DNA of 64,000 nucleotides from Natronomonas gomsonensis (GTDB lineage: Archaea; Halobacteriota; Halobacteria; Halobacteriales; Haloarculaceae), in contig NZ_CP101323.1 in the NCBI RefSeq assembly GCF_024300825.1, positions 1,736,001 through 1,800,000 on the forward strand, in the 5' to 3' direction. Position numbers and translations under genes: made by a program. Positions 7,099-54,634 of the stretch are shown piece by piece (positions within the stretch are counted from its first letter, which is position 1; every line of letters starts with the position of its first letter). Below the pieces are notes generated by a model. The model had not been told where the DNA came from, did no database searches, and worked only from the letters and a program-made list of their open reading frames with translations.

Positions 7099-7449
7099 GC
7101 TCGTATCTCTATCACCGAGGAGGTGTACGTCGCCTACGATGAGGACACCGAACGGGCCCTGATGGAACTCCAGCAAATCGCCAGCGACCACGACCCGATT
7201 CACGACGACCCGGCGCCGAACGCGCGCATCGTCGACTTGGGCAAGAACGAAGTCACCGTACAAGCCGAATTTTGGGTCGAAGACCCGATGAAAAGCGACG
7301 TTCCGACGGTTCGCTCCGACTTCCGGCGACTCGTGAAACGTCGCTTCGACGAGGAAGGCATTACGCTGGCTCCGCCGTCCGCACAGTCGCTCTCCGGGGA
7401 ACTCACGGTGGACGAACGTCGATCCGACCCAACCTCGAATGGGTCGTAA
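7099..7449 (+). pseudogene. MscS-family channel, C-terminal fragment only
   Basis: The frame resembles the cytoplasmic C-terminal domain of haloarchaeal MscS channels: VAYDEDTERALMELQQIASD, then VTVQAEFWVEDPMKSDVP, then RRLVKRRFDEEGITLAPP. Family-like sequence (ISITEEVYVAYDEDTE) extends upstream of the first usable start (GTG 7123), right up to the insertion-sequence end near 7098. The transmembrane and pore helices are absent, so the gene was beheaded at the element junction. No matching N-terminal half is seen on the other side of the element. It probably makes no functional channel. Confidence 0.75.
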
Positions 7450-48162: not shown

Positions 48163-50525
48163 GGGAGACCACTCTCCAGTGAACTGCGTCCGCGATACAC
48201 TTGAACACGTCGGGCAACGACCTCCGTGACAAAGACGAGCAGCGCCGCGAGTACCGCAAGCCAGTCCCACGTCTCCTCGACGGTCCGGACTCGGGTGGAC
48301 TGCTGTCTGGCCTGTGCGGCGATTCGTGAACCCTCATCGAGTTCGAAGGTCCGCCCGTCCGTCGTGTCGACTGCGGCGGGGAGTTCGGGACTCCGGCCGA
48401 AACTGCCGTACTCGACGGGGTAGTTGGCGGCGTACTCGGCGTCGAGTAGTTCGCCGAAGCCCTGCTGTTGGGGCGTGAACTCGCCCCGGTAGCGCTCCTC
48501 GCTCACCTGCCGGAGGGTGACGCCCTCGGCATCGGGTCGAGAGCGTCCGCGGTAGGTGAACTCGGTCGGTCGGCCGACCCGGGCGTCGCCGACCGCCGTG
48601 ACGCCGGTCCGTGTCCGCGCCGGGTCGCCGATGGCGTAGTTGACCGACTTCGTTACGACAAGCGAGTCGGGCGGTTCAAGCAGGCCGCCGAGGGTGCCGT
48701 CCTCGTCGTAGGCGGTGAGCGAGACGACGCGGCCGAGTCCGAACCGCCAGGAGGCGATTGCGGGCGTTCCGTCGGCGGTCGCGACCTGATAATCGGCGCC
48801 GGGTTTGACCGCGACCGCGTTCGCCCGGCCGGGGTTCGCCGTCAACTCCACGCCCGAGGTGATGAACGTGTTCTGGGTGACGATGGTGAGGTTCTCGCCG
48901 TCGAACCGTCGGGAGGTGCCGCCGAACAGCAGTCGCAGGCGGTTCGTCTCGTCGGCCGCGAAGTACGACCCCCCGGAGGCCTCCGCGATGCGGCGCATCG
49001 TCTGCTCGTTGACCCGTTCACCTGCCCCGACGGAGATGACCCGTGTCCCCTCCCGGCCGAGTTGGGTTGCGACCGCCGTCGGGGGGCCGAACTCCGTCTG
49101 GCCGTCGCTCAGGAGGATGATGGTCCCTTCGCGATTGCCGAGCAGTTCGTCGGCACCCCGAAGCCCGTTCGCGATGTCGGTTCCGCCGACGCTCTGCAGT
49201 CGACGGATGCGGTCGGCGGTTCGCTCGCGGGAGGTACTCAACGGCTGGAGGTCGGCGATGCGATAGACGACGTGGCTGAACGCGACGACGCCGACGCGGT
49301 TCTCATCGTCGAGTTGGTCGAGGACGTCCAGGGCGACCGCCTTCTGGATGGATTGACCCTCGCGAGCACTGCCGGAGATGTCCACCAACAGGACGATGTC
49401 GGCGGTGCCACCCGTGGCATTTCCGACGCGGACGGGCAGCGTCGAGGCGATGGGCGATTCGTCGTAGCCGCCGTTCTCGTAGGCGTTTTCGCCGCCGACG
49501 ACGGCGAGGCCGCCACCGTTGATGACGAACTCCTGGAGCGAACTGACGTTGCCGAGGCGGTTCGCCGGCGTGTCCTGGACGACGACCGCCGCGTAGTCGT
49601 CGAGGTCATCGGGCACGGCGGAGGCGTTGGTCACGTCGTACAGCGAGTTCAGATACCCCTCCAGCGGGTAGCCGCCGCCGGAGACGTACAGCACGTCCGG
49701 TTTCTCGACGACGCGAACGCTCCGATAGAAGACGTCGTTTTCGGCGTAGATGTCGTTGCCGGAGATGGTCGCCGTCACGCGGTGGGAGCCGATTTCCTCG
49801 AAGGTGTGAGAAACCGACAGCGACTCGCCCGGGGCGACCGTCTGCGTCTCGACGACTTCGCCGTCGATTCGCATCTCGACCTCGACGGGTGATTCGGCAC
49901 CGACGCCGTCGACGGTAGCGGTGAACTCGGCGGGGATGCCGACGCTGGTCGTCGAGGGACCGGTCATCGAGACCGCCCGCTCGGTGCGACGCGGCGGCAG
50001 TTCGACGGCGTTAATCGTCGCGTTCAACCGACGGGCCTCCTCGGCGGCGACCGACAGCGGTCGCCCCTCCGTCACCTGTCCATCCGAGAGGACGACCACC
50101 GTGCCGTTCTCCCTGAGGTTCGCCGCGATGCCGTCGCCGATTCGTGAATCCGTCCCGCTTCCGACCGTCGCTCTCGTCACCGGGACGCCAGCCGCTTCGA
50201 TGTCGGCGACGAGGTCGTCGGTCACGTTGCCGTACACCGCCATGCTGTCCGATTCGTCGGTCAGAAGCGTCACGCTCGGTTCACCGGGCGTCTCCTGTGT
50301 CTGGACGGTGAACGGCCCCATCGCTGCGCCGACGAGCAACACGACGACGAGCACGCGACTGGCAAAGAGGAGTCTTCGGCTCCGGGCCGATGCCGACCGC
50401 GAATCAGGCGTCCGCCGGAAGACGAGATACGCCAACACGGCGACGGCTATCGGCAGCGCCACGAGCGGCCACAGCTGTTGGAGGCCGACGGTCAGTTCCT
50501 CGCCGATGGTGTAGGACACCGACAT
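48159..50525 (-). CDS. Large VWA-domain membrane protein
   Basis: 788 residues. Two N-terminal helices (LWPLVALPIAVAVLAYLVF and LLFASRVLVVVLLVGAAMG) come before a degenerate VWA-like segment (VTLLTDESDSMAVYG). After a beta-rich section comes a second VWA domain with an intact MIDAS at 382-386 (DISGS), and a final membrane helix (WLAVLAALLVFVTEVVARRV). Similar to BatA/BatB-like aerotolerance proteins, but larger and extracytoplasmic. Overlaps its neighbours by one base and by GTGA. Confidence 0.88.
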   Translation of the reverse strand: MSVSYTIGEELTVGLQQLWPLVALPIAVAVLAYLVFRRTPDSRSASARSRRLLFASRVLVVVLLVGAAMGPFTVQTQETPGEPSVTLLTDESDSMAVYGNVTDDLVADIEAAGVPVTRATVGSGTDSRIGDGIAANLRENGTVVVLSDGQVTEGRPLSVAAEEARRLNATINAVELPPRRTERAVSMTGPSTTSVGIPAEFTATVDGVGAESPVEVEMRIDGEVVETQTVAPGESLSVSHTFEEIGSHRVTATISGNDIYAENDVFYRSVRVVEKPDVLYVSGGGYPLEGYLNSLYDVTNASAVPDDLDDYAAVVVQDTPANRLGNVSSLQEFVINGGGLAVVGGENAYENGGYDESPIASTLPVRVGNATGGTADIVLLVDISGSAREGQSIQKAVALDVLDQLDDENRVGVVAFSHVVYRIADLQPLSTSRERTADRIRRLQSVGGTDIANGLRGADELLGNREGTIILLSDGQTEFGPPTAVATQLGREGTRVISVGAGERVNEQTMRRIAEASGGSYFAADETNRLRLLFGGTSRRFDGENLTIVTQNTFITSGVELTANPGRANAVAVKPGADYQVATADGTPAIASWRFGLGRVVSLTAYDEDGTLGGLLEPPDSLVVTKSVNYAIGDPARTRTGVTAVGDARVGRPTEFTYRGRSRPDAEGVTLRQVSEERYRGEFTPQQQGFGELLDAEYAANYPVEYGSFGRSPELPAAVDTTDGRTFELDEGSRIAAQARQQSTRVRTVEETWDWLAVLAALLVFVTEVVARRVQVYRGRSSLESGLP

Positions 50526-52318
50526 CAGAGGTCCCCCCGTCGGTAGAGATAGCCGATTTCGAGCAACAGCACGGCGAGAGCGCCAAGCGCCACGAACTCG
50601 GTGAGCGGGCGCGGAACGGTTCGCTGCTCTTCGCGCGTCAACTCGCCGACGGACCCCGAGCGGTCTTCGAGCGGGTCGACGGCGGTGTCGGATTCGGCTT
50701 CGTCGAGCAGCGACGCGCTCACCTGCCGGTCGGCCGTCCCGTAGAAGCCGGCACGCTGCAGACTGACGGTCGGCCCCGAAACCGGGCCGTCAGGCCCCGA
50801 GACGGTGTCGACCTGGAAGCGCGCCGTCTCGCCGGTCGCGTAGTTCAGCGCCGGCAGCGTCTCCCGGCCGGCGAGGTGGAACGCGGAGCGCTTCCAGAAC
50901 ACCGGATACTGGTAGTTGAACTTGAAACTCGATGCGTCCTCGATGTAGCCGTAGTACAGCACTCGCCCGGGGCCGCGGTCGGCGGTGGCGACGAGCGGCG
51001 ACCCGTCGCGGAGTTCGACCAGCGACTCGCCCTCTCGGAGTTCGCCGGCGAGGTACTCGTCGGGCGGCTGGAAGTCGATGCCGCGGGTCAACTCCGAATC
51101 GGCACTTCGCCGGACCGTCGTCCCCGCCTGCGGTCCCGAGGATTCGACCAACTGGAGGTCGCCGTACCGTTCGGGCATCTCCCGCTGTGCCTGAACCGCG
51201 ACACCGCCGCCGTCGGCGAGGAGTTCCCGCCCGCTCTCGACGTTCCCCGGCAACAGCGACTCCCGATTGACGTTGCTGTAGACGATGACGTCGTAGCCGT
51301 CGTCGATGGTCGTCGGCGGGCGTTCGACGGTCACGTTCACCGAGTCGACGACCGACAGCGCCGTCGTCAGGTATCGGTTCTCGTCGTTCGTCAACACCAA
51401 CACGTCGACGGTCGGGTCCTCGGGGGCGGCCAGCGAGACGCTGTCGTCGACCGCGAAGTCGTCGCCGGGGGACAACTCGGCGCGACTCCGGCCGGCCGGG
51501 ACCGGGAAGGTTACCGTTTCGGTGTCGCCACCGTCGAGTTCGAGTTCGGTTCGGCGGTCCCCCAGCGTGACCGTCCGACTGACGCTGTCGTCGCCGAAGT
51601 TCCGGACCGACAGGGTCACCTCCGTGCCCGAAAGCCGGCGGTTGACGAAGCCGACGTTGTCCTCGCCGCCGCGGTCGAACTGCCGGAGGTCGACCGAGAT
51701 GTCACGAGCGCGGGCGGTCGTCACCGCATCGCCCCAAGAGTCGCCGGCAAAGTCGCTCACGACGACGATGCGGGCGTTCTCGCCGGCCAACGACGACGCC
51801 TGCGAGATGGCGCCACGGAGGTCTCCCGGGGCATCCGTCGGCGAGAACTCCGCGAGGAGTCCCCGGGCGTCGCTCGGCGTCCCGCGCTGGAGGCGAACGC
51901 GGCCGCCGCCCTCGGTCGTTATCACCGACGTGGCGCTCGTGGCCTCCTCGCGAGCGGCGGCGACCGCGCGGTCGAACCGACTCGCCCCGCCGTCGGTCGT
52001 CGCCATGCTCGCGCTCGTGTCGACGACGAGTACCGTCTCCTCGACGGTTTCGCGCTCCGAAACGGGCACGTACGGCGTCGCCAGCGCCGTCGCCAACAGC
52101 AGTATCGCAAGCAGTTGTATCAGAAGCAGGACGCTTCGCGAAAGCCGTTCGAAAAGCGGGGTGGTCGCCTGCTGGCGCTCCTCGGAGACCAGAAACCGGA
52201 AGGTGGGGAGTTCCACCCGTTCGGGGTCCGGGCGGATGAGGTACAACACGACGATGGGGACGGCGACGAGGAGGGCGGCTAATCCCAGCGGGAAGAGGAG
52301 GACATCCGAGAGGGCCAT
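50525..52318 (-). CDS. BatA-type VWA membrane protein, first gene of the operon
   Basis: 597 residues. The N-terminal BatA domain (LLFPLGLAALLVAVPIVVLY LIRP, then RVELPTFRFLVSEE and a second helix) is followed by a VWA domain with MIDAS DTSAS at 100-104 and a long beta-rich extracytoplasmic region. A last helix lies in FVALGALAVLLLEIGYLYRR. The family shares operons with MoxR. It starts the six-gene unit about 200 bp from the tRNA-Ser gene. Confidence 0.88.
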   Translation of the reverse strand: MALSDVLLFPLGLAALLVAVPIVVLYLIRPDPERVELPTFRFLVSEERQQATTPLFERLSRSVLLLIQLLAILLLATALATPYVPVSERETVEETVLVVDTSASMATTDGGASRFDRAVAAAREEATSATSVITTEGGGRVRLQRGTPSDARGLLAEFSPTDAPGDLRGAISQASSLAGENARIVVVSDFAGDSWGDAVTTARARDISVDLRQFDRGGEDNVGFVNRRLSGTEVTLSVRNFGDDSVSRTVTLGDRRTELELDGGDTETVTFPVPAGRSRAELSPGDDFAVDDSVSLAAPEDPTVDVLVLTNDENRYLTTALSVVDSVNVTVERPPTTIDDGYDVIVYSNVNRESLLPGNVESGRELLADGGGVAVQAQREMPERYGDLQLVESSGPQAGTTVRRSADSELTRGIDFQPPDEYLAGELREGESLVELRDGSPLVATADRGPGRVLYYGYIEDASSFKFNYQYPVFWKRSAFHLAGRETLPALNYATGETARFQVDTVSGPDGPVSGPTVSLQRAGFYGTADRQVSASLLDEAESDTAVDPLEDRSGSVGELTREEQRTVPRPLTEFVALGALAVLLLEIGYLYRRGDL

Positions 52319-52400: not shown

Positions 52401-52429
52401 ACGAGAGGCGCCGAGGGTGAGATTTGAAC
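52401..52429. repeat. Partial duplicate of the tRNA-Ser 3' end
   Basis: 29 bases identical to 52507-52535 lie 106 bp away. The copy covers the tRNA acceptor 3' strand, part of the T arm and 8 bp of flank. Further in, TTCAAATCTCAC at 52471-52482 is an inverted copy of the T-arm stretch. The geometry (3' fragment downstream of the intact tRNA) is that of an attachment-site scar. Confidence 0.7.
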
Positions 52430-52514
52430 CACGGTCGGACGTGCTCGCTCGCTGCGCGCGACCTCCCTGATTCAAATCTCACGCGCTGCTCGTGAACTGA
52501 AAACGACGAGAGGC

Positions 52515-52599
52515 GCCGAGGGTGAGATTTGAACTCACGTGTCCTGACGGACAGTTGCTCTCGAAGCAACCGCCTTGGCCGGGCTAGGCTACCTCGGCT
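52515..52599 (-). tRNA. tRNA-Ser (anticodon CGA)
   Basis: The acceptor arms GCCGAGG and CCTCGGC (52593-52599 and 52516-52522 on the plus strand) pair fully with discriminator G. The anticodon stem-loop GTTGC-TTCGAGA-GCAAC gives CGA. A long variable arm (GTCC..GGAC) is typical of tRNA-Ser, and the T arm contains GTTCAAATC. No CCA is encoded and no intron is seen. Confidence 0.93.
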
Positions 52600-52620
52600 C
52601 GATTGGACGTGGGCGTGTGT

Positions 52621-52681: not shown

Positions 52682-53107
52682 TCAATCGCTGACGACGACG
52701 ACCGGCACCGGCGCCTCCGAGAGCAGTCGCTCGGTCGTACTCCCCAACACGAGCCGTTTGAACGCCGACCGTCCTGTCGCCCCGAGAACGACCACGTCGG
52801 CGCCGGTTCGGGCGATGGCCTCCAGCAAGCGCTCCGGCGGCGGCCCCTCCTCGATGGTCGTCTCGCAGTCGATGCCGGCTTCCTCTGCGGCCCGTTCGAC
52901 CGCCGCAAGCGCCTCGCGGGCGTCTGAACGGAGGTTCTCCCTGACCTCGTCGGGGTCGACGATGGCGTTGTCGTAGGCGGTTCGGGTTTCGACGACCGAG
53001 ATGGCGTGGACCGTCGCGCCCGTCCCGGACGCCAACGTCAACGCGTGTTCGGTCGCTGCCTGTGAGTCCTCGCTGCCGTCGGCGGCGAGCAGAATGTCAT
53101 CGTACAT
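52682..53107 (-). CDS. Universal stress protein, UspA family
   Basis: 141 residues. It starts MYDDILLAADGSEDSQAATE and ends with the ATP-binding signature region VVLGATGRSAFKRLVLGSTT followed by PVPVVVVSD (G-x2-G-x9-G-S/T). Such proteins bind ATP or AMP and are linked to stress survival. A second, different Usp gene lies 75 bp upstream on the same strand. Confidence 0.92.
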   Translation of the reverse strand: MYDDILLAADGSEDSQAATEHALTLASGTGATVHAISVVETRTAYDNAIVDPDEVRENLRSDAREALAAVERAAEEAGIDCETTIEEGPPPERLLEAIARTGADVVVLGATGRSAFKRLVLGSTTERLLSEAPVPVVVVSD

Positions 53108-53182: not shown

Positions 53183-53602
53183 CTACCGGGGGCGGACGAC
53201 GGTGACCGGCACCGGCGACCGTCGGATAACCGTCTCGGCGACGCTCCCCAACAGGACGCGTGTGATGCCGTCGCGGCCGTGGCTACCGATGACTATCTGG
53301 TCGAGGTCGTGTTCCTCGGCGTAGTCGATAATCGCCCGCGAGGGCCGGCCGACGACCGAGTCGGTTTCGATTTCGACGCCCATCTCTTCCCCGCGTTCGA
53401 CGGCGTCCTCGAGGACGCTCTCGGCGCGCTTCTCGGCGGAGCCGAGCCAGTCTTCGCCCGTCGCCGGTCCCCACGCGGTGGCCCCCTCCACCGGGTCCAT
53501 GACGTACAACGCGGTGATGTCGTCGGCGGCGAACCGCTCGAAGGCGTGGTCGAGAGCGGCCTCGGCCGGTTCGGAACCGTCCGTGGGAACGAGTATGTCC
53601 AT
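53183..53602 (-). CDS. Universal stress protein, UspA family (second copy)
   Basis: 139 residues from ATG 53602. The N-terminus MDILVPTDGSEPAEAALDHA and the IVIGSHGRDGITRVLLGSVA motif with PVPVTVVRPR are the Usp signature. ATG 53602 is chosen over the long upstream frame because it begins the canonical first strand. It differs clearly in sequence from the neighbouring Usp, so this is not a recent duplication. Confidence 0.92.
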   Translation of the reverse strand: MDILVPTDGSEPAEAALDHAFERFAADDITALYVMDPVEGATAWGPATGEDWLGSAEKRAESVLEDAVERGEEMGVEIETDSVVGRPSRAIIDYAEEHDLDQIVIGSHGRDGITRVLLGSVAETVIRRSPVPVTVVRPR

Positions 53603-53671
53603 GTGCTGTGCTATCTCGTCGACATACATAAACCCAGGAGGCCTTTCAACGGCGCCCCCGAGTGACTCGGT

Positions 53672-54634
53672 ATGTACGACGCCGTTCCCTCGCTGGTCGA
53701 ATCCACCGTCCGTGTGGCGGCGTTTCCCGACGGGAGCGTCGACACCTTCCAGCGAGTTCACGCGAAAGACGGCCAGAGGCTTTCGAAGGCAGCCTTCCGT
53801 GAGGCCATCGTCGGGGGCCGCTCACAGGGGTTTCACATCGACACACACGCCGTCGAGGCCGGTGGGCAAGCCGTCAACGCCGCCCAACAGGCCCACGCCC
53901 TCGGCGACGACGTGCGACTCGACGGCTGTCTCGACGACGACCGATTCGCCTTCCCCTTCGAAACACACTCCTTCGGTACTCCCTCCGCGGTCACCATCCA
54001 CGAGTTCTCCGACGGCGACCTCACCTACGCCGACGTCAGCGACGACGTGATCGGATGGAGCCACGAGGCCTTCGAGACCGTCCCCGACGCCGACGCTTAC
54101 GTCTGTGGGAACTGGGCCTCCGTCGACGGGATGACCGACTCGCTGGCCGCACTCGCCGATAGCCTCGACGGCGGCGTGTTCGTCTTCGACCCCGGCGATG
54201 TGACGACCGCACCGGCCGCCGAGATACGCGACTGTCTCGCGGCGCTCGCGACGCTCGACGACGCCATCGACGTGGCCGTCAGCGTCAACGGTCAGGAACT
54301 GGCGGCGATTGCCGACGCCCTCGCCGTCGCGGACGACGTTGGGGCGGTTCGAGACGAAGCAGGGGTGTTCGCGGTGGTCAGACACGAAGCCGACGCCGCC
54401 GCGGCCGCGACCCGAACCGACGACGCCGCCGTCGAGAACTTCGACCCGAACGGCCCCGTCCGCCGAACCGGCGGCGGCGACCGCTTCAGCGCCGGCCTCG
54501 CCCACGGGTTGGCCGTCGGCGGGGACATCGGCCCCGCGGTGGCGCTCGGGAACTGCTGTGCGAGTTACTACGTCGCCACCGGAACGACCGGAACTGCTGA
54601 CGACATCGCGGCGATGGCGGCCGAACAGGCCTAA
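53672..54634 (+). CDS. PfkB-family carbohydrate kinase
   Basis: 320 residues. The ribokinase-fold N-motif EAGGQAVNAAQQAHALGDDV and the C-terminal catalytic GGGDRFSAGLAHGLAVGGDI (the anion-hole GxGD motif with the base Asp) are present. It phosphorylates a sugar or nucleoside with ATP; the substrate is not readable. It is divergent from the Usp gene, 69 bp between starts. Confidence 0.88.
   Translation: MYDAVPSLVESTVRVAAFPDGSVDTFQRVHAKDGQRLSKAAFREAIVGGRSQGFHIDTHAVEAGGQAVNAAQQAHALGDDVRLDGCLDDDRFAFPFETHSFGTPSAVTIHEFSDGDLTYADVSDDVIGWSHEAFETVPDADAYVCGNWASVDGMTDSLAALADSLDGGVFVFDPGDVTTAPAAEIRDCLAALATLDDAIDVAVSVNGQELAAIADALAVADDVGAVRDEAGVFAVVRHEADAAAAATRTDDAAVENFDPNGPVRRTGGGDRFSAGLAHGLAVGGDIGPAVALGNCCASYYVATGTTGTADDIAAMAAEQA

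Follow-up and report, generated by a model that had tools for sequence, protein, structure and literature searches.

The window analysed here, a 64-kb stretch of the Natronomonas gomsonensis genome, contains a single tRNA gene recognised by ARAGORN, a tRNA-Ser(CGA) on the minus strand. Nothing mobile was recognised by eye among the genes that adjoin it: the reading frame at 50525-52318 (minus strand) presumably encodes a von Willebrand-type membrane protein, and those at 52682-53107 and 53183-53761 (both minus strand) encode what we take, again by eye, to be UspA-like stress proteins. Directly behind the tRNA gene stands a short unit that ends in a second, exact copy of the tRNA 3' end; its parts are listed in Table 1.

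Table 1. Features of the tRNA-Ser(CGA) tail in the window, in the sense of the tRNA.
Feature	Positions	Strand	Description
tRNA-Ser(CGA) gene	52512-52598	-	ARAGORN span; the Rfam tRNA model spans 52514-52598
A1	52514-52533	-	Block that is copied, T-loop to base 73 of tRNA-Ser(CGA), TTCAAATCTCACCCTCGGCG
29-bp repeat, tRNA copy	52506-52534	-	A1 plus G53 and 8 nt of trailer
h1	52479-52513	-	Trailer segment of 35 nt between tRNA 3' end and inverted arm
A1'	52471-52482	-	Local T-loop and T-stem, inverted, GTGAGATTTGAA; T-loop part 52471-52478
Core	52429-52470	-	42 nt, common to units behind other tRNAs in other genera
A2	52409-52428	-	Exact second copy, T-loop to base 73, TTCAAATCTCACCCTCGGCG
29-bp repeat, distal copy	52401-52429	-
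Whole unit	52409-52513	-	105 bp: h1, A1', core and A2

The 29-bp direct duplication of the tRNA 3' end reported in the preliminary description is exact (100% identity), with a start-to-start spacing of 105 bp and a gap of 76 bp, instead of the 106 and 77 bp given there. The inverted T-arm noted between the copies is equally real, positions 52465-52489 being 80% complementary to 52410-52434. Beyond the distal copy, the flank matches the one that directly follows the tRNA in the relative G001. The h1 segment is able to fold on itself through pairing of CTCGT with ACGAG; the whole tail folded as RNA gives z = -3.94, equalled by none of 200 shuffles, and the unit folded as DNA gives z = -3.64.

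The duplication in the window is one member of a family of tRNA-tail units that stand behind tRNA genes throughout the Halobacteriales. Used as a query against 60 relatives, the tail matched the tRNA-Ser gene and, elsewhere and often several times per genome, the A'-core-A2 segment. At 19 of 20 such places the nearest match lies 21-151 bp downstream of a tRNA on the same strand; at the remaining one (L041) an intron-bearing tRNA, missed by the program, was seen by eye. To avoid circularity, a 21-mer from the core alone was scanned over public genomes, yielding at least 120 loci; eight of the 120 listed are non-haloarchaeal by title and were set aside, and the other 112 hold 114 matches. Among the matches listed, a same-strand tRNA lies 0-400 nt upstream of 103 of the 114 and an opposite-strand tRNA within 400 nt of none; the other 11 are mostly at the edge of the locus or beside a visible tRNA-like 3' end. 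The tRNAs that carry units among these listed matches represent at least 14 amino acids.

This spread bears on the preliminary description, which proposed that a larger element had been lost from between the repeats. The same small, gene-less unit recurs across the order, behind tRNA genes for at least 14 amino acids, and the proposal is not upheld; the repeat does occur in distant haloarchaea free of any element, a pattern that the description itself had named as evidence against its reading. The conserved regulatory role that it offered as the explanation of such a spread does not emerge either, as the units turn over fast between sister species.

How often tRNA genes carry a copy was assessed by a census of every tRNA gene detected in two complete genomes, for direct copies of 20 nt with at most 5 mismatches within 350 bp. 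Downstream copies are present at 7 of the 48 tRNA genes of the window's genome (upstream 1/48; reversed query 0/48) and at 26 of 44 in G056 (upstream 0/44; reversed query 0). For tRNA-Ser(CGA), allowing at most 6 mismatches, a direct copy is present downstream in 8 of the 30 genomes and upstream in none of them; the other 22 loci lack a copy at this threshold, which counts against the reading favoured below. As a control we took G067, from another family of the phylum, 30 of whose 50 tRNA matches were covered: it has no unit, and its direct copies, three of 30 downstream and three of 30 upstream, consist of entire tRNA genes in tandem.

The exact core-plus-T-loop pattern is present in 27 of 53 Halobacteriales genomes versus none of 241 others of the phylum. 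A generic pattern, an inverted T-loop and a T-loop separated by 30 to 55 nt, is found 2-18 times in each of 17 out of 19 Halobacteriales genomes and, outside the order, once each in 9 of 101; the reversed pattern occurs in one of 120 genomes. A complete unit also lies behind a tRNA-Val(tac) (L190, oriented position 7217) on a contig of a metagenome-assembled genome labelled Bacteroidetes (QS_9_68_14), which is probably haloarchaeal contamination of that bin. Repeats of a second kind, copies of T-stem and acceptor that lack the T-loop, were seen in the tails at L093, L094, L113, L114, L086 (G056) and L079 (the window's genome); a hairpin of opposite strand sense, GTTCGCAAAC..GTTTGCTCACTCCC, precedes these copies.

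Read in the sense of the tRNA, the units share one order—tRNA (A), h1 hairpin, A' (the inverted T-loop), core hairpin, A—with up to three repeats per parsed array. Their edges lie at T-loops. In 56 first units, found by T-loops only, the identity between A2 and its own tRNA stays close to chance level ahead of G52/G53, is 0.82-1.0 through base 73, and then drops; its variable positions match other tRNAs far less than its own. The inverted arm is equally local: A' tracks its own tRNA at variable position 57 (0.93, versus 0.44 for other tRNAs), and its complementarity covers that tRNA's T-loop and about three T-stem bases, where it stops. The acceptor part has no inverted counterpart, on which ground a fold-back copy of the tRNA end was rejected.

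A wider set comprises 117 units at 92 of 243 tRNA loci, a sample enriched for units, with a spacing of 94-268 bp (median 118) and a perfect A2 in 65. The A'-core-A2 hairpin, h2, has a mean z of -3.95, with 91% of units below -2, and h1 a mean z of -2.21. Folded alone, the core barely beats shuffles (mean z -0.86, 19% below -2), so that A':A pairing supplies most of the structural signal; this, too, counts against the favoured reading. A strand polarity accompanies the structure. With RNA parameters the tRNA-sense strand folds better in 95 of 117 h2 (22 worse) and 85 of 116 h1 (27 worse), and with DNA parameters it is better in 93 h2 and worse in 24. A tandem-GA stem-loop such as CGAGCGAAGCGAG, with inner GCGAAGC, is present on the tRNA-sense strand of 65/117 h1 and 32/117 cores, compared with 3 and 0 on the other strand and 0 in shuffled sequence; it is absent from the core and h1 of the window's own unit, another point against the favoured reading. 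GCGAAGC is an unusually stable DNA mini-hairpin.

Cores are shared between tRNA loci. In 147 pairs of units behind different tRNAs the cores are at least 90% identical and the T-stem and acceptor copies differ; h1 identity in these pairs is 0.605, versus a background of 0.597. The shared module is therefore the core between two T-loops. The T-loops on both sides of a shared core are local even where they are unusual, as for tRNA-His (TTCGATTC with GAATCGAA) and tRNA-Val (TTCAACTC with GAGTTGAA). Arrays are heterogeneous: adjacent units in one array are, with few exceptions, no more alike than random ones (core identity 0.65 vs 0.67; 24 pairs), and tandem duplication was rejected as the general source of arrays since adjacent units are usually not mutual copies. 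Plain tandem growth is seen at L051 (5762-6290), where three near-identical 152-bp units follow a tRNA-Lys(ttt).

Close relatives differ by precise, unit-sized steps. The tRNA-Ser of G001 is an empty site, with 84 of 90 nt from its T-loop onward matching the window from A2 onward, and that of G015 still has the initial part of the unit and a shortened A'. At tRNA-Gly, G000 has an extra 120-bp unit right behind the tRNA that G001 and G015 lack, a difference that could formally represent two losses instead of a gain. At one tRNA-Lys locus G000 and G015 carry different units and G001 carries none; the G001 trailer looks like a relic, and the locus as if a unit had been lost. The unit behind tRNA-Arg(CCT) is common to G000 and G015 and unchanged, so some units are stable, which again speaks against the favoured reading. 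Arrays also have a polarity with respect to the tRNA: of 21 arrays with several units, 10 have more mismatches in the distal A than in the proximal one, 1 has fewer and 10 have equal numbers. This decay fits both growth at the tRNA end and homogenisation of the near copy.

The nearest known kind of repeat is RtT of E. coli. In K-12 three RtT units (RF00391) stand behind tyrV, each with the 3' end of tRNA-Tyr as its last part. Their core opens with GGGGAAGGAT, an inverted 10-nt copy of part of the tRNA-Tyr end, which closes the fold; 3 of 2000 shuffles do as well. RtT core matches are present in 4695 of 5426 E. coli genomes, 1-14 times each (median 3). From the weakest RtT-core match listed we traced an RtT-like core behind tRNA-Pro that is followed by tRNA-Pro's own last 19 nt. 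This proK unit is present, and unannotated in the record, in K-12 MG1655 (L341), where a palindrome just beyond it, after the tRNA-Pro tail, is presumably of the REP/BIME kind; at L340 the proK unit is annotated 'processed from tyrT transcript', a label that does not fit the locus. An isolate that lacks the unit has at its proK the flank that follows A2 in MG1655 (95/100 nt), and 2664 of the 5426 genomes have a match that spans 80% or more of the proK unit used as query. A hairpin followed by TTTTTT, terminator-like, separates the proK tRNA from the core. Short RtT-like units of about 100 bp also stand behind tRNA-Lys at 591-666 and 1086-1161 of L343, an E. coli tRNA-Lys/tRNA-Val cluster, and 18 nt of the tRNA-Lys end recur in each of them. 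In all four E. coli units examined, with a pattern that also allowed a three-pair stem, the tandem-GA stem-loop is confined to the tRNA-sense strand.

RtT and the haloarchaeal units are alike in standing in tandem behind a tRNA, in having a repeat of the tRNA 3' end as the last part of each unit, and in the anatomy A-flank-A'-core-A, with A' pairing with A2 around a structured core; in both, cores are common to several loci—those of tRNA-Tyr, tRNA-Pro and tRNA-Lys in E. coli—and carry the local 3' ends. They differ in that the RtT copy begins 4-5 nt inside the T-loop and takes in CCA whereas the haloarchaeal copy runs from the T-loop edge to base 73, and in that the haloarchaeal units stand behind tRNAs of at least 14 amino acids and mostly form heterogeneous arrays. 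The RF00391 gathering threshold is reached neither by the window tail, in which an Rfam scan places only the tRNA above threshold, nor by the arrays in L100, L036 and L051; the E. coli units at L309 score 134-138 bits. The likeness is one of anatomy and need not imply common descent. A literature search of partial coverage found, by title and start of abstract, nothing on the haloarchaeal units or on RtT behind proK or lysT.

Other known systems share some of these properties. Integron cassette arrays consist of different units, grow in a polar fashion next to an anchor, and have imperfect attC hairpins with inverted outer boxes and a strand preference. The units resemble them in their differing composition, in a putative polar growth at an anchor and, as far as folding goes (h2 mean z -3.95, bias to the tRNA-sense strand), in hairpins with inverted outer boxes, which would be candidate recombination sites, but have no genes (117 units, 94-268 bp spacing) and are anchored at tRNA genes. 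REP/BIME elements are short, gene-less, palindromic and multi-copy. Haloarchaeal PATEs, MITEs and SMRs are described in PMC3119063 as short, gene-less, multi-copy elements that are palindromic or have terminal inverted repeats. The units are likewise short, gene-less, palindromic and multi-copy; unlike all of these elements, they lie in one orientation behind tRNA genes and carry the tRNA's own 3' end. Dispersal of the MITE or PATE type, independent of tRNA genes, is not what we see, 103 of the 114 core matches among those listed being directly behind a tRNA.

The spread of the family, the gain and loss of units between close relatives and the E. coli counterpart together point to an unrecognised route by which DNA is added behind tRNA genes. 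We put at about even odds (roughly 0.5) the reading that recombination at the T-loop, through a putative recombinase, brings in these cassette-like, gene-less units next to the tRNA. A unit would enter at the tRNA-proximal end; with the exchange point in the T-loop, the tRNA would be made whole again, and the former trailer would come to lie behind the new A. The likely substrate would be the folded tRNA-sense strand, with its alternating A:A' hairpins, tandem G-A pairs and GNA loops, for which the folded attC sites of integrons are a model. Units would leave by recombination between A copies. Against this reading stands, besides the points already raised, that the match of A' to the local tRNA exceeds what a simple T-loop exchange explains.

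A rather doubtful alternative dispenses with any dedicated recombinase and attributes the units to template switching at tRNA-tail hairpins, with homologous exchange of whole tails between strains; T-loop microhomology of 8-10 bp would then let cores be copied between tRNA loci. The movement of cores independently of h1 with edges at T-loops is consistent with this, as are the near-universality of T-loops, the complementarity of A' to the local tRNA for only about 3 nt past the T-loop, and the differences by whole units between sister species. It fits poorly with adjacent units that are usually not mutual copies and, as a plain fold-back copy, with an acceptor part that is not inverted, and it leaves the arrival of a unit at a unit-free tRNA unexplained.

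We consider it unlikely that the units are in the main RNA elements, in which a tail transcribed with the tRNA would offer h1, A' and A2 as alternative partners of the tRNA 3' half and so control processing, or the unit would be released as a small RNA, as the RtT unit of E. coli is. The core matches listed do lie downstream of tRNAs and in the tRNA sense, the tRNA-sense strand folds better with RNA parameters, and RtT, the closest family, is filed by Rfam as cis-regulatory. The same strand bias, however, is obtained with DNA parameters; a test for RNA wobble pairs found G-U no commoner than A-C in the A':A2 duplex (31 vs 38); TTTT runs, possible terminators, occur in h1 of 31 of the 117 units, just as the terminator-like hairpin of proK precedes its core; and sister species rapidly lose or replace units.

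The preliminary description had taken the duplication for an integrase-type attachment site. Like attL and attR at tRNA 3' ends, the units have a direct copy of the tRNA 3' end, a restored tRNA and empty sites in relatives, and that part of the description stands: the block copied in the window has the T-loop and the tRNA 3' end as its limits, as T-loop recombination predicts, and G001 has the empty site. The units differ from attL and attR in having no integrase or cargo, a structured conserved core, and an inverted arm matched to the local tRNA. The integrated element expected between the repeats in relatives did not turn up, the 94-268 bp spacing of the 117 parsed units leaving no room for cargo. 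Nor did an integrase near the tRNA: the general Phage_integrase family has 12 matches in the window's genome, none of them within 250 kb of tRNA-Ser(CGA). A search of viral contigs for an attP gave three core matches that look like bacterial chance matches, none with T-loops; the unit has no match in plasmids (PLSDB) and seven weak, short and unrelated ones in phages. No integrase, cargo or attP was thus linked to the units in the searches run; that no recombinase came to light weighs against the recombinase-mediated capture of cassettes as well.

Among 207 downstream copies of tRNA ends around 281 tRNAs, seven lie beyond 600 bp. Two of these (L249 and L265) retain A'-core-A, and two are a duplicated tRNA-Asp pair. 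Plain copies that lack A' and core lie beyond one or two units at L158 (+1096), L176 (+1365) and L244 (+2546), and have the look of genuine attachment remnants. Either an element would have gone into an array copy rather than the tRNA, or units would have been added at the tRNA afterwards; the arrays might act as decoy landing sites. That the units themselves are attL/attR scars of a lost or decayed integrase-borne element is very improbable: the block from T-loop to 3' end is what integrases that target these parts of a tRNA, found among archaeal tyrosine recombinases according to PMC8371274, share with their target, and the empty site in G001 agrees, but no integrase lies within 250 kb, no parsed unit has room for cargo, the family stands behind many tRNA species, a scar would not be expected to contain a conserved core or an inverted arm, and the likely true remnants at L158, L176 and L244 contain neither.

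The gain of gene-less units by T-loop recombination, the reading preferred here, can be extended to a bolder one, which we hold only tentatively and think likelier wrong than right: cassettes captured by folded-strand T-loop exchange, with arms rewritten locally, in both the Halobacteriales and E. coli RtT would represent one mechanism in two domains, and RtT would be mobile DNA rather than mainly a small RNA.

Mobile DNA classically inserts at the 3' ends of tRNA genes, where a short duplication is as a rule taken for an integration scar. The tRNA-end duplications described here are instead an order-wide, structured and fast-changing family, and they caution that not every tRNA-tail repeat is an att site. 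The units constitute a natural record of events at tRNA genes. They also alter what RtT likely is, and connect a puzzle of E. coli with a general phenomenon, open to immediate test in the 2664 of 5426 genomes with a proK-unit match.
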